From Myxococcales bacterium (GTDB lineage Bacteria > Myxococcota_A > Polyangia > Polyangiales > Polyangiaceae), in contig JAAFHV010000019.1 of the NCBI GenBank assembly GCA_013297655.1, forward strand, positions 1-60,077: a stretch of 60,077 nt of DNA. The letters run 5' to 3'. The notes beneath the pieces were generated by a model that ran no database searches, had not been told where the DNA came from, and was given only the letters and a program-made list of their open reading frames with translations. Shown here one piece after another: positions 173-16,309 of this stretch. How positions within the stretch are numbered: position 1 is the first letter of the stretch; each line of letters opens with the position of its first letter. The position numbers were made by a program, and so were the translations under genes.

Positions 173-216
173 AAAAAACGCGAAGCGCGCGACTCGGGGG
201 ATGAGCGCGCGCTTCG
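173..216 (-). terminator. Rho-independent terminator of the encapsulin/cysteine desulfurase operon
   Basis: A perfect 11-bp inverted repeat (181-191 with 206-216, 14-nt loop) is followed on the minus strand by CG and six T (178-173). It starts 17 nt downstream of the cysteine desulfurase stop codon. It marks the end of the two-gene unit, so a further co-transcribed sulfur gene beyond it is unlikely. Confidence 0.85.
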
Positions 217-232
217 AGGGAGTGCTTATGGG

Positions 233-2410
233 TTAGCGGGTGGGGCGGCCGGATTGGAGGCGGTGGAGGGCGGCGACGAGGGTGTCGATGTCTTCGTGGG
301 TGTTGTAGGGCGCTAGCGACGCGCGCACCGTGGCCTCGTAGCCGAAACGTCGCAAAATGGGCTGCGCGCAGTGGTGGCCGGAGCGCACGGCGATGCCCTC
401 TTGGTCGAGCTTGCCGCCTACCTCTTCTGTCTTTTGACCCTCGAGGACGAAGCCGAGCACTCCCGCTTTTTCCTTTGCGGTGCCTACGAGGGTGAGCCCG
501 GGGACGGCCTGCAAGCGGGGAGTGGCGTACTCCAAGAGCTCGTGCTCGTAGCGCTCCACCCGCTCGATCCCGAGCTCGCGGAGCCAATCGAGGGCAGCGC
601 CGAGACCCACCGCGTCGGCGATGTTGCCCGTGCCCGCCTCGAAGCGCGCTGGCACACCTTGATAAACAGTGTGCTCGAACGTGACGTCTTGAATCATGTT
701 GCCGCCGCCTTGCCACGGCGGAGTGTGCTCGAGCACGTCGGACTTTCCGAACACGGCGCCGATGCCGGTGGGGGCAAACACCTTGTGGCCGGAGAAGACG
801 AAGAAGTCGCAGTCGAGGGCCTGGAGATCGACCGGCATGTGCGACACGGACTGGGCGCCGTCGAGCAGCACCCGCGCGCCATAACGATGCGCCATCGCGA
901 TCATCTCGCGCGCCGGCGTGATGGTGCCGAGCGCGTTCGATACGTGGGTCATCGAGACGAGCTTGGTCTTCGGATTGAGGAGCTTTTCGTACTCCTCGAG
1001 GATGATTTGGCCGCGCGAATCGACCGGCGCGACCCGGATGTTGGCGCCTTTCTCTGCGGCGAGCATTTGCCAAGGCACGATGTTGGCGTGGTGCTCGAGG
1101 TGCGTGATGACGATCTCGTCGCCCTCGCGCACGTTCCTTCGACCCCAGCTCTGGGCGACGAAGTTGATGCCCTCGGTGGTGCCTCGAACGAACACGATGT
1201 CCTTCGCGGAGGGCGCGTTCAGGAAGCGACGAACGCTCTCGCGCGCCTTCTCGTAGGCGTCGGTCGCGCGGCCGGCGAGGGTGTGCGCCGCGCGGTGGAT
1301 GTTCGAGTTCTCGTGCTCGTAGAAATACGAAATACGATCGATGACGGTCTTCGGCTTTTGGGTAGTCGCGCCGTTGTCGAGCCACACGAGCGGTTTGCCA
1401 TTCACCCGCTCCGAGAGGATGGGAAACTGCTTTTTGAGCGAGTGCGCGTCGAGCGGCGCGCCAGGGACGTGCTTGGATTGCTCGGTCGGCGAAAGCTCGT
1501 AATGGGGAATCGCGAGTGGGCGCGATGGCTCCGGAGCCCGAAACGCCTCTGGTGCTTCTCGCGTATCTGCGTTTTCGTGGGGAGGCTCGAAGAGGGGAAA
1601 GCGAAGGCCGTCCAGATCGAGCGCCGAGCCTTGCGGAGCGGCCTCGAACCCCGAAAAATCGAGGGGAACGTCGAACGGCGTGCCCACCGCGGGCACGCCA
1701 CCGGTCGCGGGTGTGGGCGCGCGGGGACCGGCGTCGTCGCGATGGGCGTGGTGGGTCGTGGGCGTGGTGTCGACCGCGCTCGACGGGACCGCGCTGCCCG
1801 CGGGAGGTGCGCTCGGCTTCCCCGAAGTGGGCACTCCGGGATCGACCGGCGCGTGCGGGCTCGCCGCCGCCAACGTGGGTGAATAGGTATTGGCAGAGCT
1901 CGGATCGTAAGGCGCGCGCGTGCCAGATACACGAGGTGCCTCCGGCGCGTGCGGGGCCGGAGTCGCCGGAGCCTCCGAAGGCGCCGACGCGGACACGAAG
2001 CGAGCAGCACCCCCGGAAGGCGCGGGCTCGGCGTTCAGCGGCGCGGGGCTTCCCCCGTGCGGGGCGCCACCGTCGAGCGTCGTCACGTCCATCGTCCCGG
2101 GGAGATTTCCAGCGGGACCGGGCGGCAAGGCGTAAACCTCGTTTGCCATTCGCGCGATGAGGCTCGTAAGGGAGACCGGATCGAAATCGGGGCCCGTGGG
2201 CGCGGTGGGCGCACGAAGCACCGCGCCCGAGAGGCCGGGCGTGGTCGACGCGATGGCCGGGGAGCGCGGCACTTCACCGAGCTGCGGAAGCTGCGCCGCG
2301 GCGAGCCGAAGCTCCCCGGGAGACGAAGGTTCCGCGCCCGGCTGTGCGCCGCTCGGGGCGCCAGGAGCCATGCCGCCCGCGCCCGCTCGCGAGCGATCAG
2401 GGGTAGTCAT
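233..2410 (-). CDS. SufS-type cysteine desulfurase with long disordered N-terminal encapsulin-targeting extension
   Basis: PLP-dependent cysteine desulfurase, 725 aa, removing sulfur from L-cysteine to give alanine and a protein persulfide. The catalytic domain spans about residues 322-725: PLP-binding lysine K543 in FSGHK, and active-site cysteine C681 in RSGHHCAQP, typical of class II (SufS-like) enzymes. Residues 1 to about 320 are a Pro/Ala/Ser/Thr-rich, apparently disordered extension, which makes the protein far longer than the usual ~410 aa. Two short hydrophobic islands lie in it (residues 79-96 and 246-275). Family 2A encapsulins are known to package cysteine desulfurases through such an N-terminal domain. 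Its ATG lies inside the 3' end of the shell gene, with a 14-nt overlap, so translation is probably coupled. A terminator follows. The enzyme assignment is firm; cargo status is inferred from family and synteny. Confidence 0.95.
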   Translation of the reverse strand: MTTPDRSRAGAGGMAPGAPSGAQPGAEPSSPGELRLAAAQLPQLGEVPRSPAIASTTPGLSGAVLRAPTAPTGPDFDPVSLTSLIARMANEVYALPPGPAGNLPGTMDVTTLDGGAPHGGSPAPLNAEPAPSGGAARFVSASAPSEAPATPAPHAPEAPRVSGTRAPYDPSSANTYSPTLAAASPHAPVDPGVPTSGKPSAPPAGSAVPSSAVDTTPTTHHAHRDDAGPRAPTPATGGVPAVGTPFDVPLDFSGFEAAPQGSALDLDGLRFPLFEPPHENADTREAPEAFRAPEPSRPLAIPHYELSPTEQSKHVPGAPLDAHSLKKQFPILSERVNGKPLVWLDNGATTQKPKTVIDRISYFYEHENSNIHRAAHTLAGRATDAYEKARESVRRFLNAPSAKDIVFVRGTTEGINFVAQSWGRRNVREGDEIVITHLEHHANIVPWQMLAAEKGANIRVAPVDSRGQIILEEYEKLLNPKTKLVSMTHVSNALGTITPAREMIAMAHRYGARVLLDGAQSVSHMPVDLQALDCDFFVFSGHKVFAPTGIGAVFGKSDVLEHTPPWQGGGNMIQDVTFEHTVYQGVPARFEAGTGNIADAVGLGAALDWLRELGIERVERYEHELLEYATPRLQAVPGLTLVGTAKEKAGVLGFVLEGQKTEEVGGKLDQEGIAVRSGHHCAQPILRRFGYEATVRASLAPYNTHEDIDTLVAALHRLQSGRPTR

Positions 2411-3302
2411 GGTAGTGGCTAATCACCACGTCCTCGAGCACACCGAGCGCGTCGTGGGTGAGGATCGCGACAGAGCAATAGAGCGAAACCAGGTATTGCG
2501 CCGCGCCACGCTGGTTGATGCCCATGAGGCGAACCGAGAGGCTGGGGCTCACTTCTCCCGGCAAACCGGGCTGGAAGAGACCCACGACGCCGCGCTTTCG
2601 CTCGCCGGTACGCATGAGCAAGATGCTCGATTTGTTGTCCTTCACCGGCACCTTGTCGCTCGGGACGAGCGGCAGCCCGCGCCACGTGAGGAACGGCGAG
2701 CCGAACATGTTCACCGTGGGCGGCGGCACACCGCGGCGGGTGCATTCCCGGCCGAACGCCGCGATCGCCTTGGGGTGGGCGACGAAGAACGCGGGCTCTT
2801 TCCAGACGGTGGAGATGAGCTCGTCGAGGTCGTCGGGGGTGGGCGGGCCCTTGCGCGTCTTGATGCGCATGTCCGGATCCACGTTGTTCAAGAGGCCATA
2901 TTGGCGATTCCGAAGAACCTCCGCTTCTTGGCGCTCCTTCAGCTTGTCGATCGTGAGGGTGAGCTGCTCTTTTACCTGGTCCATCGGGCTACGAAACAGA
3001 TCGGATACACGGGTATCGACCTCGATCGTGGTGGTGACGGAGGTGAGCACGTACTCGCGTGGGTTCGGCTCGTAGTCGCTGAAGCCGACCGGAAGCTCTT
3101 CGCCGAGCTCGGGGCTGCACTTGAGATCGAATTTGTCGTCGAGGGCCTGGTTCACCCGGAACACGCCCGCTTCCACGGGAGTCCACGGGATCATTTGGAC
3201 GAGCCAGCGCGGCGTCGTCCCACGCCACTGCGGGGGCGTCTTGGTCGTGTTCGAGAGCTGCCTCGCGGCGCGCTCCCCAATCGTTCGCGGAGGGTTCGAC
3301 AT
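2397..3302 (-). CDS. Family 2A (SrpI-like) encapsulin shell protein
   Basis: Predicted HK97-fold shell protein, 301 aa, the length expected for family 2A shells without an inserted cyclic-nucleotide-binding domain. Family-like features are a PRWLVQMIPW...EAGVFRVN segment (residues 31-51), a central helical segment rich in K/E (residues about 115-150, extended-loop/P-domain region), and the conserved-looking C-terminus ending SHYHDYP. The next gene, overlapping by 14 nt, encodes a cysteine desulfurase with a long disordered N-terminus, the hallmark cargo of family 2A. Known relatives assemble into icosahedral shells that store elemental sulfur. The ATG at 3302 has no obvious Shine-Dalgarno. 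A small hairpin upstream (3425-3439) separates it from the glycosyltransferase gene, so a promoter within 3303-3420 is expected. Recognised from memory of the family; a profile search would settle it. Confidence 0.88.
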   Translation of the reverse strand: MSNPPRTIGERAARQLSNTTKTPPQWRGTTPRWLVQMIPWTPVEAGVFRVNQALDDKFDLKCSPELGEELPVGFSDYEPNPREYVLTSVTTTIEVDTRVSDLFRSPMDQVKEQLTLTIDKLKERQEAEVLRNRQYGLLNNVDPDMRIKTRKGPPTPDDLDELISTVWKEPAFFVAHPKAIAAFGRECTRRGVPPPTVNMFGSPFLTWRGLPLVPSDKVPVKDNKSSILLMRTGERKRGVVGLFQPGLPGEVSPSLSVRLMGINQRGAAQYLVSLYCSVAILTHDALGVLEDVVISHYHDYP

Positions 3303-3413
3303 GAGGATTTCACGCTACCGGCCCCGACCAGTCGCTCGCAATGGCCAAACGCCCGCCCCCCCAAATCGTCACCATGCCGCGCCGCGCATGACGCGGTTTG
3401 GCCGGGCGCTTTC

Positions 3414-3439
3414 CTCGCAAAATTCCCTCGGTTCGAGGG
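3414..3439 (-). terminator. Small terminator hairpin after the GT39-like gene
   Basis: A 6-bp perfect stem with a 3-nt loop (3425-3430 with 3434-3439) is followed on the minus strand by AATTTTG. It begins 10 nt after the stop of the glycosyltransferase gene and precedes the encapsulin gene by about 110 nt. The stem is short, so termination may be partial. Confidence 0.5.
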
Positions 3440-3448
3440 TTCGGCGCT

Positions 3449-5050
3449 TCAGGGGTTTCGTTCGAGGATCACGAAGTGCCCGTGGTCGAGCACGCGGTGG
3501 TACCCGCGAGGTAGGTAGTAGCTCGCGTCGTCGACCGAGCCCGGCTCGCACTCCGTCCGCGCGACCACGAACCGCGGCTTGGCGCTCTCGAAGGCGGCGA
3601 GATCTTCGGCGAGGTATTCCGGGCGGCGGTACGCGCGCGCCTTGCTCACGAGGAACGTGGCCCAGAAGAAGCGCCCCGGGTAGCTCCGCTTCGCGATCGC
3701 GTACACCTCGGGTTGGAAGCCGCGCACGAGCACCGAATCGTCCTCCGAGGAGTGCTCACGGAGCCAATCGCCCACCCACGACGAGTCGGCGTAGTTGAAG
3801 TGTATTCCCTCGAAGGAGTAGCGCGAGAGGTAGCGCTCGCGACTGTCGATCCCACGAGCGTACCGCCATACCGCGATTTGCTGCTCGCCCCACCTTCGCC
3901 CGTGCGGTGATAGGAAATAGATGCCGAGGAGCAGCGCCCAAGGGGCAATCTTCGCCCGCCGCACGGAGTACCCACGAGCTTCGAGGAAGCTCGTGAGATC
4001 ACGGGCGAGCAAGAGGCCCAGGAGCGAGAGCGGGGCCATGAGCGGAGTCCAATGAAGCAGGTAGTACTTCATCTGCATCGCGACGCAGAGGTAGCTCACG
4101 AGGAGGAGCGAGAACGCGAACTTGTAACGAGCGACGCGTTCTTGATCCCCCGCCTTTTTGGCGAGCACGAGCACGATCGCCGCGACCACGACGAGGAGGC
4201 TCAGCGGCATCATGTGCGCGACGTAGCCCTGAGCGGCGTCGAGGGTGTCGGCGAAGGGGTTGTCGTCCCGCTCGTGGGAGACGTAATAGCCATTCGCCCC
4301 GACCACGATGTCTTTCATCGCCGCGAGCGCGCCCTTCGAGCCGAAATACGCGAGGGTGAGCCCGATCGGCGCCGAAGCCCCCGCCGCGGTGAGGCCGAGC
4401 ATGGCCGCGTAGTCTTTCGGCTTCGCTTTTTGCTCCCGAAGACGCATCGCCATGACCCCCGCCGCGAAGAGGCAGAGGCAAATCGCGGGAGGCTTCATCA
4501 CCAGCGCGGCGCCCATCGCGAGACCCGAGAGCAGCGGAAAATGCTTCTTTTTGCCGTCGAACCTTCGCGCGAACAAGACGGCGAGGCAGCCCAAGAGGGC
4601 ATAGTGGAGCTCACTCTGGGCCGAGTCCCAGAAATTCAGGACACCAAAGAAGAAGATGGCCACGAGCGCGGTCGCGCGGCCGAACGCCCCCTCTTCCGGT
4701 CGCTCGTCGCGCGGGGCGGAGAGCCACGCCACGACGAGGCCGGTGGCGACCACGGCGACGAAATCGAAGATCCGAATGCCCCACTGATGCTCGCCGAAGA
4801 TACGAATCGCGAGGGCGTGCAAATAATAGATACCCGGCGTCTTGTGGTCGAACACGTCCCGATAGGGAATTTTGCCGTGCCGCACCCACTCGCGGCCTAC
4901 GTAATAGTAGAGCCCCTGGTCCCGCCCGAAGGGCAGCACCAGCGTGAGCACTCCGAAGATCGACGCGATCAATAGGCCGACGAGATCGCCGACGGAGAGG
5001 GGCGAGCGTCTTGGGGTTGGTTCTTGGGGGTCGGGGGCTTCGGTCGCCAT
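3449..5050 (-). CDS. GT39/ArnT-like membrane glycosyltransferase (PMT_2 type)
   Basis: Multi-spanning inner-membrane protein, 533 aa from the chosen ATG at 5050, which gives MATEAPDPQ; an in-frame ATG at 5167 would add 39 Arg-rich residues that look non-coding. After a short cytoplasmic head come about 10-12 hydrophobic helices. The first extra-cytoplasmic loop carries FDHKTPGIYYLHAL, the aspartate-containing motif of the dolichyl-phosphate-mannose/ArnT (GT39/GT83) superfamily, which uses polyprenyl-phosphate sugars. A ~130-residue C-terminal periplasmic domain follows the last helix. Sugar and acceptor cannot be told. It is upstream of the encapsulin gene in the same direction but separated by a hairpin, so a shared function is doubtful. 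Confidence 0.8.
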   Translation of the reverse strand: MATEAPDPQEPTPRRSPLSVGDLVGLLIASIFGVLTLVLPFGRDQGLYYYVGREWVRHGKIPYRDVFDHKTPGIYYLHALAIRIFGEHQWGIRIFDFVAVVATGLVVAWLSAPRDERPEEGAFGRATALVAIFFFGVLNFWDSAQSELHYALLGCLAVLFARRFDGKKKHFPLLSGLAMGAALVMKPPAICLCLFAAGVMAMRLREQKAKPKDYAAMLGLTAAGASAPIGLTLAYFGSKGALAAMKDIVVGANGYYVSHERDDNPFADTLDAAQGYVAHMMPLSLLVVVAAIVLVLAKKAGDQERVARYKFAFSLLLVSYLCVAMQMKYYLLHWTPLMAPLSLLGLLLARDLTSFLEARGYSVRRAKIAPWALLLGIYFLSPHGRRWGEQQIAVWRYARGIDSRERYLSRYSFEGIHFNYADSSWVGDWLREHSSEDDSVLVRGFQPEVYAIAKRSYPGRFFWATFLVSKARAYRRPEYLAEDLAAFESAKPRFVVARTECEPGSVDDASYYLPRGYHRVLDHGHFVILERNP

Positions 5051-5232
5051 CGGGTTCGCGCTGCGTTTAGCACGGTACCGCGGGAAGGGAGGTCCGCAGG
5101 ACCGAGCGACGCCCGAACCTTTCGCGCCGATCCGACGAGCGAGCTCGAAGGGGGCACGAGCGTCCATGGAGGGAGGTCCGCAGACCGGCGAGGCTACGAA
5201 TCCAGGGCGCCGGACGAGACTCTACGCGCGTG

Positions 5233-6236: not shown

Positions 6237-6749
6237 ATGAGGCTCCCTGGCGCAGAACGGACGAAAACCATGCCGCCATCGAACACCGCCGAGCACGCGT
6301 CGAGATCGGGAACGGCGAAAAAAGCCGGTGATCGTGGGCCGAAAGCCACCCCCGCGCCGTGGGAGGTGGAGGTGTTCTTCGACGGAGATTGCCCGCTCTG
6401 TGCGCGCGAGATCCGCATGCTCATGCGCCTGGACGAGCCCGCCCGCCGCATCCGGTTCACCGATATTTCTGCCCCCGATTTCGACGCTGGCAACGTCGGC
6501 CTCAGCCTCGAGGCGCTCATGGATCGCATCCACGGTCGGCTCCCGAACGGCGAGCTCGTCGAGGGCGTGGAGGTGTTTCGTCGCCTCTACGAAGCGGTCG
6601 GGTTCCGGCGCTTGGTGAAGCTCACGCGCCTCCCCGGCGTGTCCCACCTCCTCGATGTATGTTACACGCTGTTCGCGAAGAACCGCCTTCGCCTCACGGG
6701 CCGCTGCGCCCCCGGCGCGTGCGAAGTGCCCGCCCGCGGCAAAGCGTGA
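6237..6749 (+). CDS. DCC-family thiol-disulfide oxidoreductase-like protein (DUF393)
   Basis: 170 aa. The motif [13 protein letters not shown] (about residues 47-59) is the DxxCPxC signature that names the DCC family of small thioredoxin-like proteins. The following helix-rich segment runs to [11 protein letters not shown]. The first ~40 residues are charged and poorly conserved-looking, and an internal ATG at 6270 is an alternative start. The family often lies next to membrane or FAD-dependent enzymes, and its exact substrate is unknown. The gene diverges from the CarH-like regulator and is 27 nt from the direct-repeat operator. It lies 31 nt before the desaturase-like gene, so co-regulation by light/B12 is plausible. 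Confidence 0.82.
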
Positions 6750-6780
6750 TGGCGGCGCGAGCGCGGGGGCGGCGCCTCCG

Positions 6781-8358
6781 GTGACACCTCGTTCGGCGAC
6801 GACCTACGACGCGCTCGTCGTCGGCGCGGGCTTCGGCGGGCTCGGCGCCGCGATCGCCCTCGCGGAGGGCGGCGCGAGCGTGTGCGTGTGCGAGTCGCTG
6901 CGGTATCCAGGCGGCTGCGCGAGCACGTTCACGCGCGGAGGCGCGCGATTCGACGCGGGGGCGACCCTGGTGAGCGGCCTCGCGAAGGGGCAACTGTTCG
7001 GGGACTGGCTCGCCAAGTATTCGCCGTCCACGGTGGTGGATTGGATGGACCCGCTCGTCGAGCTGCGAACCGGCGATTTTTCGCTCGAAATTTCGCGTGA
7101 TCGGGAGTCGCTCGTGCGTTCGTTTTTGGCCATTCCGGGCGCCCCGGCGCGAGCGATTCGTGGCTTCTTCGACTTCCAACGATCGATCGCGGCGTCGCTC
7201 TGGGAGCTCTTCGACGACCCGACTCTGCTGCCGCCGTTCGGGCCGCGGATGGTGGGCCGTCACGCCGGGCGCGCGCTCCGCTATTTGCCACTCTTGCCGC
7301 TCCTGGGAAGATCCCTCGGCGAGGTGCTCGCGTCGCACGGTTTGGCCGATTTTCGCCCCCTCCGCACCTATGTCGACGCGCTCTGCCAAATCACGGTCCA
7401 GTGCTCGGCCGACGAGGCGGAGGCCACGTTCGCGCTCGCGGCGATGGACTACTATTACCGCGGTACGGGGCATGTTCGTGGCGGCGTGGGCGCGCTCGCC
7501 GACGCCCTCGTGTCCGCGTGCACGCAGCTCGGCGCCGAGGTGAAGCTCTCGAACCGTGTCACTGCCCTGCGCCGCGCCGAAGACGGAACGTGGATCGCGA
7601 CCACACGCAACGGTGAGCTTCGCGCGCGCACGGTCGTGGCCAATCTGCTTCCCTCTGCGCTCGCGGCGATGCTCGACTCGGAAGCGCACGCGCACGCGAT
7701 CACCGCGCTTCGCGCGCGTTCTTCGCCGATCGAGAACGCGTGGGGCGCGGCGATGCTCTATGCCGTCGCGCGCCCTCCCGAGGGCGAACGCGACGACGCG
7801 CACCACCTCGAGCTCGTGAACGACGCGAGCGCGCCCTTCGCAGAGGGAAATCACGTCTTCGTCTCGATAAGCTCCGCCCTCGAGACCGAACGAGCGCCAG
7901 CGGGTCGGCGCGTGCTCACCATGTCGACGCACGTGCCCCTCGCGAAGCTCGCGCGGCTCGGGGAAGGCACCGCGGCGTACGTGGCCGAGGTGCAAAACGC
8001 GATGCGCGCGACGATCGCCGCGCGCGCACCGGAGTGGCACGAGGGGCTCGAGCGGGTGCTCCCGGCGTCCCCGCGCACCTTCGCGCGCTTCGTCGGCCGG
8101 CCCGCGGGCGCGGTCGGTGGGCTCCCTCGTCGCGCCGGGCTCGCGAGCTACTCGAGCCTCGGACCTTCGTCGCCGCTCGACGACGTGTGGCTCGTCGGCG
8201 ACTCGGTGTTCCCTGGCCAAAGCGCGCTCGCGACGGCCATCGGAGGGGTGCGCACGGCGACCGCGATCACGCGGAGGCTCGGCGCTTCGGTGTCACGCGC
8301 GGAGGCTCGGGACGGTGTCGCGTCGGCACCGGTCGGTGTCGTCGCGACGCGCGCGTAG
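6781..8358 (+). CDS. Phytoene desaturase (CrtI/CrtO/CrtISO)-like FAD-dependent oxidoreductase
   Basis: 525 aa from a GTG at 6781; the frame is open from 6655, but that leader overlaps the DCC gene and looks non-coding. An N-terminal dinucleotide-binding motif VVGAGFGGLGAAIALAEGG (about residues 11-29) is followed by the PGGCASTF segment. The C-terminal FAD motif WLVGDSVFPGQSA...GGVRTA is that of carotenoid desaturases, isomerases and ketolases of the CrtI/CrtO group. Many non-carotenoid amine-oxidase relatives share these motifs, so the substrate is open. Its position behind a CarH-like light regulator and operator favours a carotenoid or other polyene role. Confidence 0.82.
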   Translation: MTPRSATTYDALVVGAGFGGLGAAIALAEGGASVCVCESLRYPGGCASTFTRGGARFDAGATLVSGLAKGQLFGDWLAKYSPSTVVDWMDPLVELRTGDFSLEISRDRESLVRSFLAIPGAPARAIRGFFDFQRSIAASLWELFDDPTLLPPFGPRMVGRHAGRALRYLPLLPLLGRSLGEVLASHGLADFRPLRTYVDALCQITVQCSADEAEATFALAAMDYYYRGTGHVRGGVGALADALVSACTQLGAEVKLSNRVTALRRAEDGTWIATTRNGELRARTVVANLLPSALAAMLDSEAHAHAITALRARSSPIENAWGAAMLYAVARPPEGERDDAHHLELVNDASAPFAEGNHVFVSISSALETERAPAGRRVLTMSTHVPLAKLARLGEGTAAYVAEVQNAMRATIAARAPEWHEGLERVLPASPRTFARFVGRPAGAVGGLPRRAGLASYSSLGPSSPLDDVWLVGDSVFPGQSALATAIGGVRTATAITRRLGASVSRAEARDGVASAPVGVVATRA

Positions 8359-8463
8359 CGAACGCCTCTACCGCGGCGGTGATGTCGGTGATGTCGGGTC
8401 GAATCCACGCGTCCATCCGGGGGAAACCCCTTCAGGACACTTCGCGACGACGATTTCGAGCAG

Positions 8464-8537
8464 CGCGCCACACAAGATTCGAACTTGTGACCTTCGGCTT
8501 CGGAGGCCGACACTCTATCCAGCTGAGCTAGTGGCGC
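8464..8537 (-). tRNA. tRNA-Arg (anticodon CCG)
   Basis: Full cloverleaf on the minus strand. The 7-bp acceptor stem is GCGCCAC/GTGGCGC, the D-arm is GCTC...GAGT, and the anticodon stem TCGGC/GCCGA encloses loop CTCCGAA, giving anticodon CCG (8503-8501) for CGG codons. The T-arm is ACAAG-TTCGAAT-CTTGT and the discriminator is G. The 3' CCA is not encoded. Confidence 0.97.
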
Positions 8538-8771
8538 TTGAGAAACAGCACCCGCTACTCCGAATCCGCACCTTGGTCAAGAGCAATTCGGAGAACGAAG
8601 GGTTTCCTGGGGGGACATGCCCCGTGGATCTTAAAACCACCGGGAAATGTGCGACTTTTCCGCGGTGACCGGAAAAATCTAGATGTGTCATGGAGTGGGC
8701 ATCTTCCGAAAAAGCTGCCAAAACACGCGCACTCGACGCCCGACGTCACCAAGACGGAGATCACACGACCT

Positions 8772-10328
8772 ATGAAGCACGCCTCTCGTTTCGCGTTCGC
8801 CAGCTTGCTCCTCCTCGCCTGCGGCTCCGAGGTCGTGATTGTCGACGGAAACGGCAACCCGGTGCCGAGCGATGGGAACAGCGGCGGACCCGCGGCCCTC
8901 GCGCCGAAGACGCCGGCGGCCAAGGTCGCGATCGACCAAATCGCGGTTTACCAAGGCGTGAAGATCCCCGTGTTCGCAGAGGGCGCTCGTATCGAAGAGC
9001 GCAACGCCCCGATCGTGGCGGGTCGCCCGGGCTTGGTTCGTGTGTTCCTCACGCCGGCCGAGGGCTTCACTCCGACCCGCATCGCGGGCGTGCTCACGGT
9101 GAAGGCCGCCGACGGCAAGGTCAGCACCTTCAAAGACGCGCGCATGATCCGAAGCGCTTCGTCCGACGCGGCGACCGCGTCGACCCTGTCGTTCGATCTC
9201 CCGGGCGAGGCGTTCTCGGTCGACGCGCAGTTCTCCGTCGCGCTCACCGACGACCTCGGCCAGGGCACGGGCTCCGCCACGCAGACGCCGGTCAGCTACC
9301 CCGCGACCGGCCTCGACGCGCTCGGCGTGCAAGCGACCGGCATCGTGAAGGTCGTCATCGTCCCGGTGAAGTACGACACCGACAGCTCGGGTCGCCTCCC
9401 GGACGTGAGCGAGGCGCAGCTCGAGGTCTACCGCAAGACGATGATGGGTCTTTACCCCACGTCCGAAGTGCAAGTGACGGCGCGCGAGCCCTACTCGTGG
9501 ACCACGAGCATCAGCGCGAACGGCACCGGCTTCGACGGCGTGCTCAACGCCATGGTCAGCCTCCGCCGCCGCGATCGCGCCGCGGACGACGTTTATTACT
9601 ACGGTGTTTTCACCCCCCAGAGCAGCTTCGAGTCGTTCTGCCGCCGCGGGTGTGTCACCGGGCTCTCGGGTCTCGTCGACGACGCGGGCGACGCATACCT
9701 CCGCGCGAGCGTGGGCCTCGGGTTCGCGGGCGAAGAGTCCGCCGCCACGATGGCACACGAGATCGGTCACGCCCACGGTCGCAATCACGCCCCCTGCGGC
9801 GGCGCCGGCGGCCCCGATCGCCAGTTCCCATACAAGGGCGGCGTCATCGGTTCGTGGGGCTACAACATCCTCACGAAGGAGCTCATCTCCCCCGCGGATG
9901 GCACCGACATGATGGGCTACTGCGACAACGCGTGGGTCAGCGACTACACGTACCTCGCGCTCTTCGATCGCATCGTCGCGGTGAGCGGCGGGAAGTCGTC
10001 GGCGCAGGGCGCACAGGCCTCCGGCGGCGCCGGAAGCAGCGGTGGTAGCTCGTTCCGCTCCGTCACGTTCGACGGCAACGGCGTCGCCACGTCGGTCGAG
10101 ACGATCAAGCTCGACAAGGCCCCCGAGCGCGGGACCGTTCGCGACGTGGAGTACCTCAGCGAGGCCGGCCAGACCATCGCCCGCGCGCAGGCCCACGTGT
10201 ACAAGTACGACCACCTCCCCGGCGGCATCATGGTCATGCCGGAGCAGTCGGCTCCTTACGCCAGCCTCCGCGTCGCGACGATGAAGAACGTGCTCAACCT
10301 GAAGAGCTTGGCCACCACCACGCGCTGA
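8772..10328 (+). CDS. Lipoprotein with metzincin-type zinc protease motif
   Basis: 518 aa from the ATG at 8772, the first start giving a lipoprotein signal peptide (MKHASRFAFASLLLLAC, lipobox LLAC). The frame is open upstream to 8538 but covers the tRNA flank. After a beta-rich region comes HEIGHAHGRNH starting at H329, the HExxHxxGxxH zinc site of metzincins; a downstream MMGYCDN supplies the expected Met-turn-like methionine. A Gly/Ser-rich linker (about residues 415-428) leads to a C-terminal domain. The protein should sit on the outside of the inner membrane or on the outer membrane. A strong hairpin follows. The protease family and substrate are not identifiable by eye. Two more zincin lipoproteins lie at 31083 and 39239. 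Confidence 0.85.
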   Translation: MKHASRFAFASLLLLACGSEVVIVDGNGNPVPSDGNSGGPAALAPKTPAAKVAIDQIAVYQGVKIPVFAEGARIEERNAPIVAGRPGLVRVFLTPAEGFTPTRIAGVLTVKAADGKVSTFKDARMIRSASSDAATASTLSFDLPGEAFSVDAQFSVALTDDLGQGTGSATQTPVSYPATGLDALGVQATGIVKVVIVPVKYDTDSSGRLPDVSEAQLEVYRKTMMGLYPTSEVQVTAREPYSWTTSISANGTGFDGVLNAMVSLRRRDRAADDVYYYGVFTPQSSFESFCRRGCVTGLSGLVDDAGDAYLRASVGLGFAGEESAATMAHEIGHAHGRNHAPCGGAGGPDRQFPYKGGVIGSWGYNILTKELISPADGTDMMGYCDNAWVSDYTYLALFDRIVAVSGGKSSAQGAQASGGAGSSGGSSFRSVTFDGNGVATSVETIKLDKAPERGTVRDVEYLSEAGQTIARAQAHVYKYDHLPGGIMVMPEQSAPYASLRVATMKNVLNLKSLATTTR

Positions 10329-10355
10329 TCGCGCCGCAAAAGCACGACACCACGC

Positions 10356-10381
10356 CGGGCGAGCTCCTCCGAGCTCGCCCG
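10356..10381 (+). terminator. Hairpin after the metzincin lipoprotein gene
   Basis: Perfect 11-bp inverted repeat (356-366 with 371-381 of the 10-kb block) with a 4-nt loop, 27 nt after the stop codon. No T-tract follows, so it may be an RNA-stabilising hairpin or a weak terminator. Confidence 0.55.
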
Positions 10382-10421
10382 TGCCTTGACACCCGCGACC
10401 CCCTCGAGATAACCCCGCCCC

Positions 10422-10592
10422 ATGGCCGACGCGCACTCGAAACACCTGCCCGAGCCCTTGACCCCCATGTGGCTGCCGGCGCTCGGCGCCACGCTCTTCC
10501 TCCTCGCGGGGATTTGGTGGGCGTGGACGAGCTCGGCCACGCACGTCGATGGCTCGACCGAGTCGAAGCCCGCCGCGATCGCGCACCCCTGA
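10422..10592 (+). CDS. Small single-span membrane protein
   Basis: 56 aa, beginning MADAHSKHLPEPLTPMWLP. One hydrophobic helix occupies about residues 17-38 (LPALGATLFLLAGIWWAW), flanked by a short polar head and a polar tail. It follows the terminator of the preceding gene and precedes argC by 187 nt. Small proteins of this plan are common next to respiratory or membrane complexes, but nothing here tells its partner. GC3 is high and the frame is clean, so I believe it is real. Confidence 0.6.
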   Translation: MADAHSKHLPEPLTPMWLPALGATLFLLAGIWWAWTSSATHVDGSTESKPAAIAHP

Positions 10593-10779
10593 GCGGTGAC
10601 CTCGTTTTTTCGAGGTTTCGTGGTCGTCGCATGCGCGTGATGGCGACGTTGTGTGTCCGACGTTCACGTCGCGAGCGGCCCAGTTGGCGGCTCCCCCGAA
10701 CCGAGACGCGACGGGGTCGCCCGGGGCGCGCATTCGCCGTTGTGTTTTTGCGCGAAAGCCCGTAACCGCGCACGCGTAT

Positions 10780-11814
10780 ATGAGCACGCAGCGTGTCATC
10801 GTCGTCGGCGCGTCCGGGTACTCGGGCGGGGTGCTCGCGCGCTTGCTCGCGTCGCACCCTCATTTGACCCTCCACGCCGCCACGTCGGACGCGCGGGCAG
10901 GGAAAAACGTGGGGCGTGAGCTCGGGTTTCGATCCGACGTGTGCTTCGTGAAAAACGGAGAAGCCCTGCGCGCGGCCGAGACGTGCGACGTGGCGTTCCT
11001 CGCGACCCCGGCGGAGGTGTCCGCGTCGCTCGGGCCGGAGCTCCACGCCGCAGGAAAAACGGTGGTCGATTTGTCCGGCGCGTTCCGCCTCGCGACCGGC
11101 GACGATGTGCGTGCGCATTACAAGTTTTCCCATCCCCACGAGGATCGCCTCGGGAAGACGCGCTACGGGCTGCCGGAGATGTTCGGCGCGCCGGAGAAGG
11201 GCGCCCTCGTCGCGAACCCGGGCTGTTACCCCACGCCCACGCTCCTCGGCCTCGGTCCGCTCGTGAAGGCGGGGCTCGTGTCGCCTTCGGGCATCGTGGT
11301 CGACGCGAAATCGGGCACCACCGGTGCCGGACGGCAGTCGAAAGAAGAGCACTCGTTCGCCGAGGTTGCCGAGAACCTTCGCGCCTACAAGCTGCTCTCG
11401 CACCAGCACGAGCCGGAGATCTCGCAAAAGCTCGCCGCCTACGCGGGCACGGCGGTGACGGGCCTCGTGTTCACGCCGCATCTCTTGCCGGTGCGACGCG
11501 GCCTGCTCACCACGAGCTACGTGCGCCCGGTCGCGGGAGCCGACACCGCGAAGCTCGAGGCGTGCCTCCGCGACACGTACGCGGGCTCGCTCTTCGTGGA
11601 GATCGTGGCCCCGGAGGAGGTGACCCTCGCGAGCGTCACCGGCACCAACATGTGCCGCCTCGGGGTCGTGTCGCGTGGCGACGTCGCGATCGTGGTCGGC
11701 GCGATCGACAACTTGGTGAAGGGCGCCGCGGGGCAGGCCCTCCAGAACGTGAATCTTGCACTCGGGTTCGACGAGGGGTGCGGGCTCGTAGGCCTGCAGA
11801 GGAGCGCAGCATGA
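10780..11814 (+). CDS. argC: N-acetyl-gamma-glutamyl-phosphate reductase
   Basis: 344 aa, the usual length for ArgC, from the ATG at 10780. It reduces N-acetylglutamyl phosphate to the semialdehyde with NADPH, the third step of arginine synthesis. The N-terminal Rossmann motif is VVGASGYSGG and the catalytic cysteine lies in ANPGCYPTP. First gene of the operon argC-argJB-argH-argF. Its TGA overlaps the ATG of the argJB fusion (ATGA at 11811-11814). No ARG box was recognised in the 187 nt upstream. Confidence 0.96.
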   Translation: MSTQRVIVVGASGYSGGVLARLLASHPHLTLHAATSDARAGKNVGRELGFRSDVCFVKNGEALRAAETCDVAFLATPAEVSASLGPELHAAGKTVVDLSGAFRLATGDDVRAHYKFSHPHEDRLGKTRYGLPEMFGAPEKGALVANPGCYPTPTLLGLGPLVKAGLVSPSGIVVDAKSGTTGAGRQSKEEHSFAEVAENLRAYKLLSHQHEPEISQKLAAYAGTAVTGLVFTPHLLPVRRGLLTTSYVRPVAGADTAKLEACLRDTYAGSLFVEIVAPEEVTLASVTGTNMCRLGVVSRGDVAIVVGAIDNLVKGAAGQALQNVNLALGFDEGCGLVGLQRSAA

Positions 11815-13898
11815 GAATTCCCATCGGTTTTTCCTTCGCGGGAACCAACGCCGGCATCAAGGCGCTCAAGAAGGACATGGCGCTCGTGTACAGCGAGATC
11901 CCGTGCAGCGCGGCCGGGGTGCTCACCGTGAACCGCGCCAAAGCGCCGCCGGTGGAGGACGCCGAGAAGCGCCTCCCGGGGAAGGGATTTTCCGCGATCG
12001 TCTTGAACAGCGGCAACGCGAACGCCCTCACCGGCGACCAGGGTCGCGCCGACGTACGCGCCATTCACGAGGCGATGGGCAAAGCGGTGGGGGTGCCCGC
12101 GAGCGCGGTGCTCTCGATGTCGACCGGGGTCATCGGGGTGCCGCTCCCGGTGCAGAAGCTCATCGCCGCGTGCGACGGGCTCGCGCGGAGCCGCGGGGAG
12201 GGCATCGTCGCCGCCGCCGAGGCGATCATGACCACCGATACGCGTGTAAAGCTCACGCATCGCGTGCTCGTCCTCGGGGAGACCACGGTCACGATCGCGG
12301 CCTTCGCGAAGGGCTCCGGGATGATCGCGCCCGAGCTCGCGACGGTGCTCGCCGTCATCACGACCGACGCGCAAATCGAGCCGCACGTGATGCAAGCGAT
12401 GCTCGCGCGCGCGACCGACAAGAGCTTCCACTCGCTCGTGATCGACAACGACATGAGCACGAACGACGCGGTGATCATGCTCGCCAACGGCGCCTCGGGG
12501 AAAGGCCTCGAGAAGCCCGACGACGCGCGCGAGTTCGAAGAAGCGCTCACGAGCCTCACGGTCGAGATCGCACGCTCGATCGCGGAGGACGGCGAGGGCG
12601 CGACGAAGACGCTCGAGGTCCGTGTCTCTGGCGCTCCCGACGCCGCGATCGCCCGTGATTTGGCGAAGATGGTCGCCGGGTCGAACTTGGTGAAGGCGGC
12701 GGTGTTCGGCGCCGATCCGAACTGGGGCCGTGTGCTCGCCGCGATCGGCTCGCGGGTGGGCTCGAAGAAGTACGCGGTGGATCCTTTGAAGGGCCGCGTG
12801 TCGCTCCAGGGCGAGGTGGTGTTCGACGAGGGGGGGCCGCGCCTCACCGAACCGCAGAAGCTCCGCGCGAAGATGCGCGAGCCGCAGGTGAAGATCGACG
12901 TCGACCTCCGCGCCGGCGACGGCGAGGCCACCGTGTGGGGCTGCGATCTTTCGTACGACTACGTGAAGATCAACGCCGACTACATCAGCTTCACGAACGC
13001 GTCGCCGGAGGGCGTGGTCACGAAGGACGATCGCCTCACGAACTACAGCCCGTCGTTCAAGCGCTCGCTCCTCGTCGAGGCGCTCTCGTACATCGACAAA
13101 TTTTCCAAAAAACGAGCGGTCATCAAGTATGGCGGCGCGGCGATGGTGAAAGACTCGCTCAAAGCGAGCTTCGCCAACGACATGAATTTGCTCCGTTCTG
13201 CGGGGCTCATGCCGGTGGTCGTGCACGGCGGCGGGCCCGAGATTTCGCGCACCCTCGAGAAGCTCGGGCAGGGAAAGAGCGAGTTCGTCGACGGCGTGCG
13301 CGTGACGGGCGTGGAAGACGTGAAGGTGGTGGAGATGGTGCTCACTGGGCGCATCAACACCGAGCTCGTGTCGCTCCTGAACCAGAAGAGCGCCAACGCC
13401 GTGGGCGTGTCCGGCAAAGACGCGGGGCTCCTCCGCGCGCGCCGCCTCTATGGCAAAGAGGGCCGCGACCTCGGCATGGTGGGCGAGATCACGCACGTGA
13501 ACCGCGACTACTTGGAGATGCTGCTCGACAAGGGCTACGTGCCCGTCGTCTCCCCCGTCGGCCTCGGCGAGGACGGCTCCGGGTACAACATCAACGCCGA
13601 CACCGCCGCCGCCGAGATCGCGGTCGCGCTCCAGGCCGAGAAGCTCATTTACCTGTCCGACGTCCCCGGCATCCTCGAGAGCGGAGAGCTCATCAGCGAG
13701 ATCACCGCGAGCGAGCTCCGGAAGCGCATCGACGACAAAATCATCGTCGGGGGGATGGCGGCGAAGGCCGAGAGCATCCTCCGCGCGCTCGCGGGCGGGG
13801 TTCGCTCCGTGCACGTCATCGACGGACGCACGCCCCACGGCGTGATCGCCGAGCTCTTCACCGACCGCGGCATCGGCACTCTCGTTCGAAAGGACTAA
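11811..13898 (+). CDS. argJB: Fused ornithine acetyltransferase / acetylglutamate kinase (ArgJ-ArgB)
   Basis: Single frame of 695 codons with no stop between two complete enzymes. ArgJ spans residues 1 to about 393: self-cleavage site in KGSGMIAPELATVL, with the nucleophile at T178, and the family's usual C-terminal YVKINADY. A ~20-residue linker (SPEGVVTKDD region) leads to ArgB, residues about 413-695, with VIKYGGAAM (437-445) and VHGGGPEI. ArgJ regenerates N-acetylglutamate from acetylornithine; ArgB phosphorylates it, so the fusion joins producer and consumer of the same intermediate. After ArgJ self-processing, the beta chain would carry ArgB. The only candidate internal start for free ArgB is GTG at 13014, with a GGAGGG only 1 nt away, too close to be efficient. 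Overlaps argC by 4 nt; argH follows after 4 nt. Confidence 0.94.
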   Translation: MRIPIGFSFAGTNAGIKALKKDMALVYSEIPCSAAGVLTVNRAKAPPVEDAEKRLPGKGFSAIVLNSGNANALTGDQGRADVRAIHEAMGKAVGVPASAVLSMSTGVIGVPLPVQKLIAACDGLARSRGEGIVAAAEAIMTTDTRVKLTHRVLVLGETTVTIAAFAKGSGMIAPELATVLAVITTDAQIEPHVMQAMLARATDKSFHSLVIDNDMSTNDAVIMLANGASGKGLEKPDDAREFEEALTSLTVEIARSIAEDGEGATKTLEVRVSGAPDAAIARDLAKMVAGSNLVKAAVFGADPNWGRVLAAIGSRVGSKKYAVDPLKGRVSLQGEVVFDEGGPRLTEPQKLRAKMREPQVKIDVDLRAGDGEATVWGCDLSYDYVKINADYISFTNASPEGVVTKDDRLTNYSPSFKRSLLVEALSYIDKFSKKRAVIKYGGAAMVKDSLKASFANDMNLLRSAGLMPVVVHGGGPEISRTLEKLGQGKSEFVDGVRVTGVEDVKVVEMVLTGRINTELVSLLNQKSANAVGVSGKDAGLLRARRLYGKEGRDLGMVGEITHVNRDYLEMLLDKGYVPVVSPVGLGEDGSGYNINADTAAAEIAVALQAEKLIYLSDVPGILESGELISEITASELRKRIDDKIIVGGMAAKAESILRALAGGVRSVHVIDGRTPHGVIAELFTDRGIGTLVRKD

Positions 13899-13902
13899 GA
13901 CC

Positions 13903-15354
13903 ATGGCTTCCGGATCGATCGCGCGGACCGCTGCTACCGGCGACGGGGGCATGATCCCCGAGCTTCTCGCGTGGAGCTCGTCGATGGAGGACGACGTGGG
14001 CCTCGCGCGGGAGGACATCCTCGGCAGCGCCGCCCACGCGACGATGCTAGGCGAGACCGGGCTCATTTCGCGCGAGGACGCGAAGCTGCTCCGTGAAGAG
14101 CTGCTCGGCCTCTATGCCCAAGCCGAGAAGAGCGTGCTCGCGCTCCCCTCCGGCGAAGAAGACGTGCACATGGCGATCGAGAGCCTGCTCACCGACAAGC
14201 TCGGCGACGTGGGCAAGCGGCTCCACACCGCGCGCTCGCGGAACGACCAAGTGTCGACCGCGCTCCGGCTCCACGTGCGCACCCGCCGCGCGCGGCTGGT
14301 GGTGCTCGCGGCGGAGCTGGTGCTCTCCCTCGTGGAGCGCGCGCGCGCCGAAAAAGACCTTATTTTACCTGCATATACGCATCGTCAACGAGCGCAGCCG
14401 GTCTCGGGAGCGTTCTTGATCGCGGCGTGGAGCACCGGGATTTTGCGCGCGACGAAGCGCCTCGCCGACGTCGACGTGTCGGAGTGTCCGCTCGGCGCGG
14501 GGGCGTGCTCGGGCTCGAGCTTGGGGATCGATCGCACCCTCACCGCGAAGCTGCTCGGCTTCCCCGGCGGGCCGACGAAGAACGCGCTCGATACGGTCGG
14601 CGATCGGGATTTTTCCCTCGATTACACGTACGCGTGCACCCGGATTTTGCTCGCGCTCTCTCGCCTCGCGACCGACATCATCGACTACTCCACGAGCGAG
14701 TTTCGCTTCGTGAAGCTCGGCGACGCGATCTCTGCCGGCTCGTCGATGATGCCGCAAAAGAAGAACCCGGACATCTTCGAGCTCGTGCGGTCGAAGGCCT
14801 CGTTCGGGGTCGGCAACGTGGTGCAGCTCATGACGTTGGTGCGCGGCCTCCACGCCGGGTACAGCCGCGACTTGCAGGACGACAGGCGCGCGACGTTGGG
14901 TACGGGGCCCATCGTCGGCGGCGCGCTCGGCGCGGTGATGCTCGCGTTCCCGCACGTGAAGTTCGACAAGGTCGCGTGCCTTCGCGCGGTGTCCGACGGC
15001 TCCACCCAGGCGACCGATTTGGCCGAGGCGCTCGTGCGCCAGGGCATGCCTTTCCGCGACGCATACAAAGCGGTGGGCAAGCTGGTCTCCGCCGCGACGG
15101 ACGCGAACCGAACCCTGATCTCGCTCACCGAGGCCGAGGCGAAGACGTTCCACCCCGCGTTCAACGAGGCCGCGCTGCGGGCCCTCGATCCGGTGCGCGC
15201 GGTGGCTGCAAAAGAGAGCATCGGCGGCACCGGCGCGGCGTCGGTCGAAGGTCAGCTCCTCGCCCTCGAGGCCGAAGCGACGATCCTCCGCGAGCTCCAC
15301 ACGACGGACACGCTCCGCGCGGTGGCCGAGCGGATCGCCGACTACCCGAACTGA
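13903..15354 (+). CDS. argH: Argininosuccinate lyase
   Basis: 483 aa; cleaves argininosuccinate to arginine and fumarate. Family motifs are HTARSRNDQV, YTHRQRAQP (the TH motif) and the signature GSSMMPQKKNPD with the catalytic serine loop. Length is slightly above the typical ~460, from a ~20-residue N-terminal head (MASGSIARTAATGDGG). It starts 4 nt after argJB. An unusual run of AT-ending codons covers residues 150-163 (14350-14391), exactly at the conserved YTHRQ motif; the rest of the gene is strongly GC3-biased. argG is not in the window. Confidence 0.96.
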   Translation: MASGSIARTAATGDGGMIPELLAWSSSMEDDVGLAREDILGSAAHATMLGETGLISREDAKLLREELLGLYAQAEKSVLALPSGEEDVHMAIESLLTDKLGDVGKRLHTARSRNDQVSTALRLHVRTRRARLVVLAAELVLSLVERARAEKDLILPAYTHRQRAQPVSGAFLIAAWSTGILRATKRLADVDVSECPLGAGACSGSSLGIDRTLTAKLLGFPGGPTKNALDTVGDRDFSLDYTYACTRILLALSRLATDIIDYSTSEFRFVKLGDAISAGSSMMPQKKNPDIFELVRSKASFGVGNVVQLMTLVRGLHAGYSRDLQDDRRATLGTGPIVGGALGAVMLAFPHVKFDKVACLRAVSDGSTQATDLAEALVRQGMPFRDAYKAVGKLVSAATDANRTLISLTEAEAKTFHPAFNEAALRALDPVRAVAAKESIGGTGAASVEGQLLALEAEATILRELHTTDTLRAVAERIADYPN

Positions 15355-15385
15355 GTCAACGTTCATCGAAAGGCAGACGAGGCCC

Positions 15386-16309
15386 ATGGCGAAGCGCGAT
15401 TTCCTCTCTTTGAGCTCCCTCACGCGGGAAGAGCACGACCGTGTGCTCACCCTCGCCGCGACCTTGAAGGCCGAGCGCGGCGAAGAGCGTCGCGCGCGCA
15501 CGAACGAGCTCCGCGGCCAGTCGGTCGCGATCATCATGGAAAAAGCGAGCACCCGCACGCGGGTCTCGTTCGAGGTCGGCGTCGCGCAGCTCGGGGCGCA
15601 CCCGGTGGTGCTCGGGGTGCAAGGGAGCCAGCTCGGTCGCGGCGAGCCGATCGTCGACACCGCGCGTGTGCTCGCGCGTTACTGCGACGCGATCGTGTAC
15701 CGCACGTTCGAGACGAAGAAGCTCCTCGAGATGGCCTCGTGCCACGTGCCGGTGGTGAACGCGCTCACCGACGACGGGCACCCGGTGCAAGTCTTGGCCG
15801 ACGTGTTCACCATGCGCGAAAGCCTGGAGCTCCACGGCCACGGGAGCCTCGAAGGTCGTCGCGTCGCGTTCGTGGGCGACGCGTCGAGCAACATGGTTCG
15901 TTCGTTCGTCGAGGCGGCCCCGATCTTCGGGTTCCACCTCGCCCTCGCCGCGCCAGAGGGCTACCGCCCGCCCGCGGACGAGCTGGAAAAAGCGGGCAAG
16001 TGGGTCACGATGTTCGACCGACCCGAGCCGGCCTGCGAGGGTGCCGACTTCGTGCACACCGACGTGTGGACGAGCATGGGCCAAGAAGCCGAGAACGAAG
16101 CGCGCATGAAAGCATTTGCAGGATACACGCTCACGAACGGCCTCGTCGGTCACGCGGCGAAGACCGCCAAGGTCATGCACTGCTTGCCCGCCCACCGCGG
16201 CGAGGAGATCGCGGACGACGTGATGGAGGGGGGCTCGTCGATCGTGTTCGACCAAGCCGAGAACCGACTCCACGTGCAGAAGGCCTTGCTGCTCTTCTTG
16301 ATGAAGTAG
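15386..16309 (+). CDS. argF: Ornithine carbamoyltransferase
   Basis: 307 aa; makes citrulline from ornithine and carbamoyl phosphate. The carbamoyl-phosphate-binding motif is EKASTRTRVSFE, the ornithine-side motifs are DDGHPVQVLAD (V where Cys is common) and HCLPAHRGEE. Last gene of the arginine operon, 31 nt after argH, and convergent with the histidine kinase gene 19 nt downstream. The operon lacks argD and argG, which must be elsewhere. Confidence 0.95.
   Translation: MAKRDFLSLSSLTREEHDRVLTLAATLKAERGEERRARTNELRGQSVAIIMEKASTRTRVSFEVGVAQLGAHPVVLGVQGSQLGRGEPIVDTARVLARYCDAIVYRTFETKKLLEMASCHVPVVNALTDDGHPVQVLADVFTMRESLELHGHGSLEGRRVAFVGDASSNMVRSFVEAAPIFGFHLALAAPEGYRPPADELEKAGKWVTMFDRPEPACEGADFVHTDVWTSMGQEAENEARMKAFAGYTLTNGLVGHAAKTAKVMHCLPAHRGEEIADDVMEGGSSIVFDQAENRLHVQKALLLFLMK

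Follow-up and report, generated by a model that had tools for sequence, protein, structure and literature searches.

The stretch of DNA analysed here (the window) covers contig C101 of a Myxococcales bacterium from end to end (60077 bp), and two overlapping genes close to its left end encode what is, by sequence, the shell and the cargo cysteine desulfurase of a Family 2A encapsulin system. In a branch of related loci the two genes are mostly followed by a third, which encodes a fusion of rhodanese, XRE-type helix-turn-helix (HTH) and cupin domains and is also found in the window's own genome. The features of the locus are as follows, with the evidence in brackets.

173-215, minus strand: intrinsic terminator after the cargo gene (hairpin 182-215 and T-run 173-178)
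233-2410, minus strand: cargo cysteine desulfurase gene, 725 aa (open reading frame, ORF, and profiles)
236-1453, minus strand: SufS-type catalytic domain, residues 320-725 (profiles, fold)
368-370 and 782-784, minus strand: cargo C681 and K543, which we take to be the catalytic cysteine and the pyridoxal 5'-phosphate lysine (invariant in 34 aligned cargo proteins)
1454-2410, minus strand: N-terminal arm of the cargo, residues 1-319, P/A-rich and predicted to be disordered (composition, AlphaFold2)
1583-1681, minus strand: branch-specific block B2, residues 244-276, TPFDVPLDF...LRFPLFEP (arm alignment)
2126-2173, minus strand: motif M1, residues 80-95, SLTSLIARMANEVYAL, the published LARLANEFFS motif (pattern, model)
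2177-2248, minus strand: branch-specific block B1, residues 55-78, STTPGLSGAV...PTGPDFDP (arm alignment)
2397-2410, minus strand: 14-nt overlap, with the cargo ATG within the last shell codons, YHDYP-stop (ORFs)
2397-3302, minus strand: shell gene, Family 2A encapsulin, 301 aa (ORF and profiles)
2493-2495 and 2526-2528, minus strand: shell Y270 and L259, counterparts of Synechococcus elongatus Y273 and F262 near the cargo density
3425-3439, minus strand: small stem-loop with a 6-bp stem between the upstream gene and the shell gene (folding)
3449-5167, minus strand: upstream PMT_2-type gene (Pfam), whose closest paralog follows the fusion gene on contig C237 of the same genome

The shell protein scores 476.4 bits against the NCBIfam model NF041162 (encap_f2a, cut-off 380), and its sole Pfam match at E 0.001 is the SrpI-like family PF19307. 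It is also above the cut-off of the Family 2B model NF041163 (412.6 vs 400 bits), the best stretch being model positions 216-449 of 450; the cNMP-binding domain of Family 2B is not present in the 301-aa protein, for which Pfam shows the SrpI-like domain alone. These 2A and 2B models are its only NCBIfam matches, in a search that included no dedicated Family 3 or 4 profile, and the Family 1 profile PF04454 matches nothing in the own genome nor, at E 0.001, the shell itself. The closest solved structures by sequence are 8t6r (Major membrane protein I) and 6x8m (SrpI), the residues corresponding to the S. elongatus pore (G191, P193) and to the cargo site (Y270) are all kept, and a single SrpI-type shell was found in the genome. 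The cargo protein matches the Family 2A cargo desulfurase model NF041166 at 838.5 bits (cut-off 800, residues 305-718) and TIGR01979 at 555.2 bits (cut-off 475.1). Its AlphaFold2 model, built from 34 sequences, has a SufS fold in the catalytic part, mostly confident, and the best fold match is the Mycobacterium smegmatis cargo desulfurase 8kg1 (Z 54.4, 1.9 A over 384 residues, 62% identity), a ranking that speaks for the families listed by the fold searches. The first-pass annotation had called both ORFs at these positions, with their 14-nt overlap, as a Family 2A shell and a desulfurase with about 320 extra residues, and had proposed a profile search of the shell; the scores above bear out these calls, and since the SufS-type domain starts at about residue 320, the extra part comes to about 319 residues.

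In a quick tree of 107 shells, with support by the Shimodaira-Hasegawa-like approximate likelihood ratio test (SH-aLRT) and not by bootstrap, the window falls within a branch of 23 rows (SH-aLRT 100, stem 0.21), which correspond to 21 loci as L041/L061 and L054/L180 are repeats. Loci with both shell and cargo numbered 101, or 94 without duplicates, and the comparisons of cargo proteins below cover 90 of them, after L084, L088, L090 and L100 were left out. In these four the cargo frame starts 703-1132 nt past the shell, and the roughly 700-1100 nt after the shell stop may hold an extra gene or a broken arm.

The cargo ATG lies 14 nt ahead of the end of the shell stop codon. Non-redundant shells that terminate in [YF][HY][DE]Yx-stop number 59, and 55 of them have the xAT codon that creates an ATG at -14, against 16.6 expected from each locus's own codon use; in the window itself, the histidine codons elsewhere in the shell and the catalytic domain are 1 CAT vs 19 CAC. 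Judged from this codon choice, the overlap is kept beyond chance. The direction is clear, and the P value, which is too small because loci and genomes are related, should not be read as a probability. Translational coupling is the likely reason for which the overlap has been kept.

The N-terminal arm contains 18.5% P and 17.2% A over its 319 residues, and its block means of the predicted local distance difference test (pLDDT) are 31-50 nearly throughout, indicating predicted disorder. The sole predicted helix, residues 78-93 with pLDDT block means of 49-60, covers the LARLANEFFS motif, whose version in the window is IARMANEVYAL (residues 85-95); the second published motif, AASPYYFLDG, is not present in the window arm by pattern match. 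An arm was found in 90/90 cargo proteins compared, with lengths of 80-410 residues and a median of 239 (window included), values that depend on the chosen start in the 36/90 loci where the ATG at -14 is missing. The arm had been described as unusually long, which holds relative to the 225 residues of the S. elongatus cargo desulfurase CyD; it does not hold for the family, as 21/90 cargo proteins have arms longer than 319 residues, and a giant arm was rejected as a novelty on this ground. Synonymous codon use yields a weak coding signal for the arm (0.131 per codon vs at most 0.085 in the other frames and 0.442 in the catalytic part); its reading rests on the conserved frame and on the blocks.

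The branch arms carry two short blocks with the consensus TPG..LA..RVPG.PTLPE.DP (B1) and PFD.PL.FD (B2). With the branch assigned by the tree, B1 occurs in 18/18 branch arms vs 1/72 others, B2 in 16/18 vs 1/72, and the AASPYYFLDG pattern in 2/18 (the window being among the 18) vs 56/72; these counts are descriptive, B1 and B2 having been defined after the 18-arm alignment was viewed. The first definition, made by hand, had left out L042, L046, L048 and L051. In the recount by tree L051 was placed in the branch, as was, by its arm, L037 (cut shell); L047, whose cut shell is 81% identical over residues 156-300 and whose arm carries the second published motif, had been moved by hand to the others for lack of the blocks and was again counted with them. 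Among rows outside the block definition, L064 and L071 show both blocks by eye, and G329, a genome described below, has a clear B1 and only a loose B2. With slightly widened patterns B2 was found in 20/97 full arms, 19 of them in the 23-row branch, where two further rows are without B2 and two have partial arms. In L045 and L063 the M1 pattern hit a different stretch; both have LANE in the correct place. On these alignments, the branch retains one of the published arm motifs, mostly lacks the other and carries two branch-specific blocks. For S. elongatus, the available text of PMC8049743 reports some loading with the first 100 residues, the best loading with the 225-residue arm and none with a piece bearing the second motif; loss of that motif would thus be compatible with loading. 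Branch-specific blocks beside a conserved helix should help to tell the parts of the arm that loading requires from dispensable ones.

At the putative cargo site of the shell, position 259 is L or M in 23/23 branch rows and F in most rows of the tree, and Y at position 270 is found in 107/107. Co-evolution of residue 259 with the cargo arm was considered and demoted to a lead, because the position ranks only 19th of 301 in its association with block B2 and the change does not recur independently alongside these blocks of the arm. Only three changes are needed on the tree in all, and independent pairs gave no support for a coupled change of residue 259 and B2. The 77 rows without B2 include eight with L and one with M at 259, two of these nine lying inside the branch, and one of the 20 rows with B2 has F.

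The first-pass annotation had taken the shell-cargo unit to stand alone, without a rhodanese next to it. This is not readable from the window, because position 1 is the contig end, 232 bp past the desulfurase gene. Twenty-two branch stretches were examined downstream, 17 of which (from 16 genomes) hold the cargo gene with a further 1 kb or more of sequence behind it. In 13/17 a gene matching the whole fusion starts no more than 60 nt from the cargo stop (including L062, where its frame is broken), in one it follows a flavin mononucleotide (FMN) reductase gene (684 nt), and in three, L154, L156 and L069, it is not there. The sequence of L060 ends inside the fusion gene. All three Pfam domains were verified in seven downstream fusion genes and in the own copy. 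At the genome level, a branch shell or arm is found in 18/317 genomes of the class and the fusion in 16 of these 18, whole in 13, across two contigs in one and with broken frames in two; the branch genomes without a fusion match are G143 (72% complete) and G107 (98% complete). The other 299 genomes have no match at E 1e-40 that starts before query residue 76, and only the XRE-cupin half is matched at that level, in a search that scored at most seven candidates per genome and would miss a more divergent fusion. One more genome, G329, came from 377 sampled genomes of the phylum; it lies outside the class and was picked by its fusion alone. The operon was expected there from the fusion and was then found: the shell is 74% identical, the ATG is at -14, block B1 is present, position 259 is L and the second motif is missing, and the fusion, aligned from its residue 14, follows the cargo stop at 30 nt. 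Across 14 genomes, the distances among shells agree with those among fusions (r 0.83, 0/2000 permutations as high).

Several of the loci compared have features of their own. The FMN reductase gene mentioned above (L164, G141, 8266-8889) encodes an NADPH-dependent enzyme, a possible source of reductant, between cargo and fusion. At L156 (G010:C102, 90-1107) genes for SufU (TIGR01994) and SufT (TIGR03406) come after a branch shell and its divergent cargo, and the same genome has a second cargo gene on C146, cut by the contig end and followed by the fusion. Just upstream of the shell at L154 (G176, 12374-16285) lies a gene whose product, at about 1300 aa, carries Cu-binding MopE motifs. At L160 (G020, 7448-12188) and L163 (G156) the 2A shell-cargo operon is divergent from a longer Family 2B-like shell gene pair within a few kb.

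The own genome of the window encodes the fusion at C237:8697-9623, minus strand, with Rhodanese, HTH_3 and Cupin_2 all above their Pfam cut-offs. The missing rhodanese is therefore most likely a contig-end effect, since the own genome holds the very fusion that most relatives encode right after the cargo gene. The start of the own fusion lies 160 bp inside the right end of C237, and the gene points away from this end, an orientation that fits direct placement of C237 to the left of the window; as a scale for chance, 546 contig ends of 160 bp make up 0.9% of the genome by simple arithmetic. Next to it on C237 comes a gene (6898-8556) that shares 39% identity with the PMT_2-type gene of the window and is the best paralog of the latter in the genome, and if C237 adjoins the window, shell, cargo, fusion and both paralogs all lie on one strand. 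We consider it highly likely that C237 adjoins the left end of the window, and the third gene is probably present here, beyond a strong terminator. Joining the two contigs by end overlap or inverted repeat was tried and gave nothing significant. C237 and the sister genome G176 have no gene order in common beyond the fusion in the stretches compared, and a search of plasmids gave no record covering 80% of the fusion. Between the terminator and the contig end, a purine-rich GA microsatellite was seen by eye at 52-104 of the window, which is a possible reason for the assembly break.

The fusion looks as if two recurring neighbours of Family 2A operons, a rhodanese and an XRE-cupin protein, had been joined in this branch, because both recur as separate genes near other 2A loci. 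Outside the branch, 12/69 loci have XRE-cupin genes no further than about 7 kb from the shell, and 8/69 have rhodaneses of at least 45 bits in that range. The rhodanese half stands nearer to stand-alone rhodaneses, at most about 2 kb downstream of other 2A cargo genes (64-100 bits in 12/12 loci tried), than to the other rhodaneses of its own genome. That genome has rhodaneses in nine places; of the eight others, all but the C219 copy were tried, and four match the rhodanese half at 44.7-55.5 bits while three do not match. C63, in the VC..G.RS loop of the rhodanese domain, and C305, near the cupin end, are invariant in five aligned fusion copies, and we take C63 to be the active rhodanese cysteine. 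The AlphaFold2 model of the Nannocystis copy, from five sequences, shows three folds and a loose linker (mean pLDDT 75, predicted TM-score 0.43). Its best match in the PDB is the HTH_3 regulator 1y9q, with the XRE-family cupin 6b8w at rank 19 and the rhodanese-containing 3tp9 at rank 42. An assignment as PuuR was ruled out, the own fusion reaching 50.7 bits with the PuuR model NF007408, far under the cut-off of 211. Another regulator of similar kind is SutR, which presumably has a cupin domain. SutR of Escherichia coli is described as a transcription factor of sulfur use (PMC8464067, as far as its available text goes). No title or abstract in the literature searched describes a rhodanese-XRE-cupin fusion; supplementary tables lay outside that search, and the fusion may be known.

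We propose, with a probability of roughly 0.78, that the two genes encode shell and cargo of a myxobacterial Family 2A branch whose third component is the rhodanese-XRE-cupin protein, with sulfur-state regulation as its most likely role. By analogy with characterised relatives, 60 shell subunits would form a T=1 compartment, and translation of the cargo from a start codon inside the shell gene would ensure that both are made together. Assembly and loading would then follow as in those relatives, with the disordered arm, chiefly helix 78-93, anchoring the desulfurase on the inner wall close to the three-fold axis. Cysteine would enter via the five-fold pore, and the enzyme would release its sulfur inside. 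Characterised Family 2A members reportedly store sulfur, the topic of Benisch et al. 2024 by its title. Most likely, the rhodanese-XRE-cupin protein would take up sulfur from the compartment and its state would regulate sulfur genes or the operon itself. Sulfur sensing, or a sulfur-relay regulator, is the simplest reading of the fusion, and we offer it tentatively. Equally tentative is the fuller proposal that the rhodanese partner became a transcription factor reading the sulfur state of the compartment, along with altered arm motifs and the F to L/M change at the cargo site.

Several observations weigh against this proposal. The ends of C237 and the window share no sequence and no significant inverted repeat (70/500 shuffles are as good). 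Even if the two are joined, at least 392 bp and a strong terminator separate the cargo stop from the fusion start, unlike in the relatives, so that the fusion may be driven by a promoter of its own in this genome. In G176, the sister genome, it shares contig and strand with the cargo gene, from which it is separated by 11 kb and by other genes. It was not found within 2.1 kb at L069, SufU and SufT take its place at L156, and G107, despite its branch shell, gives no fusion match at E 1e-40. A perfect-palindrome operator search upstream of 21 shells (two stretches coming from one genome) found nothing shared, and matches 2-18 of the fusion fold are mostly HppE-type epoxidases, which also have HTH and cupin. 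The terminator, the distance in G176 and the lack of overlap between the contig ends would fit a two-gene operon whose genome keeps the fusion elsewhere, or where the fusion acts alone. However, the fusion starts 160 bp from a contig end and is oriented to fit, PMT_2 paralogs lie to either side, and linkage is tight in 13/17 branch loci, which makes this unlikely.

It is a distinct, if doubtful, possibility that the fusion is a mere sulfur acceptor, or that its cupin half answers another ligand or is an enzyme, with no report of sulfur to the DNA-binding domain. Other 2A operons have a stand-alone rhodanese in this position, cupin regulators bind small ligands, and an HTH followed by a cupin need not mean a regulator because HppE-type epoxidases share that order. 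Against this, both halves form one chain in 13/18 branch genomes (with one more over two contigs and two with broken frames), C63 and C305 do not vary among the aligned copies, and XRE-cupin genes recur near other 2A loci too. The released sulfur might instead go to Fe-S cluster assembly and be neither stored nor sensed, as the SufU and SufT genes after the cargo at G010 C102 and the SufS-type catalytic domain could suggest; that gene order is, however, unique among 14 loci whose first downstream gene was scanned, the cargo there is divergent, and no such genes lie in the readable part of the window, which makes this explanation very improbable. We also consider it highly improbable that the long P/A-rich arm works beyond loading, for example in forming a cargo condensate or in spacing the catalytic dimers off the wall. 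Its 319 residues, disordered in the model, and the presence of such arms in all cargo proteins compared would agree with this idea, whereas the freedom of its length to vary even between sisters (319, 262), with short blocks alone conserved, fits a weakly constrained spacer. On our proposal of sulfur-state regulation, a likely regulator in one chain with a rhodanese, tied to the operon by neighbourhood and by presence across genomes, would offer a handle, via three genes, on how cells read and use the sulfur released by Family 2A encapsulins.

The terminator after the desulfurase gene, called strong in the first-pass annotation, is so by calculation, its fold of -25.9 kcal/mol being matched by 0/200 shuffles (z -4.95); a terminator consensus scan also found the site, with no regional excess over shuffles (2 found, 3.8 expected). 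The same annotation had placed a hairpin before the shell gene. The stem-loop at 3425-3439 does exist and is probably a weak terminator of the upstream gene, but the intergenic stretch as a whole (3303-3448) is no more structured than shuffles (z 0.19, 115/200 as stable). The two nearest readable genes beyond the shell are of PMT_2 type and MerR/B12 type. Serine acetyltransferase has six matches in the own genome, the best at 156.5 bits, all under the cut-off of 210.65 and none on C101. Further along, an Amino_oxidase ORF (6655-8358) begins within a DCC1-like ORF (6237-6749) that is read in a different frame; the true start of the Amino_oxidase ORF is probably further in.

The S. elongatus SrpI-CyD system is alike in shell profile, in the pore residues G191 and P193 and the cargo-site Y270, in the SufS-type cargo, in the disordered arm and in the LARLANEFFS motif; it differs in an arm of 225 instead of 319 residues, in AASPYYFLDG, which is missing in the window, and in F262, which is L259 here, and the text available of PMC8049743 makes no mention of a rhodanese-XRE-cupin partner. 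In PMC8346489, as far as its text is available, serine O-acetyltransferases and rhodaneses are named as the most enriched accessory genes of Family 2A desulfurase operons, and the main text uses 'cupin' once, for Family 1 operons, and 'helix-turn-helix' and 'XRE' nowhere. The operons described there share the shell-cargo core and the rhodanese neighbour with our branch, in which, unlike in those operons, the rhodanese is fused to an XRE-cupin protein and no serine acetyltransferase was seen adjoining. Major membrane protein I (8t6r, 8wol) is alike in shell sequence, and the M. smegmatis cargo desulfurase 8kg1 in catalytic fold, its arm being shorter judging by residue numbers (catalytic domain from 156). 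With XRE-cupin regulators such as PuuR the fusion has the order of HTH and cupin in common, to which it adds an N-terminal rhodanese.

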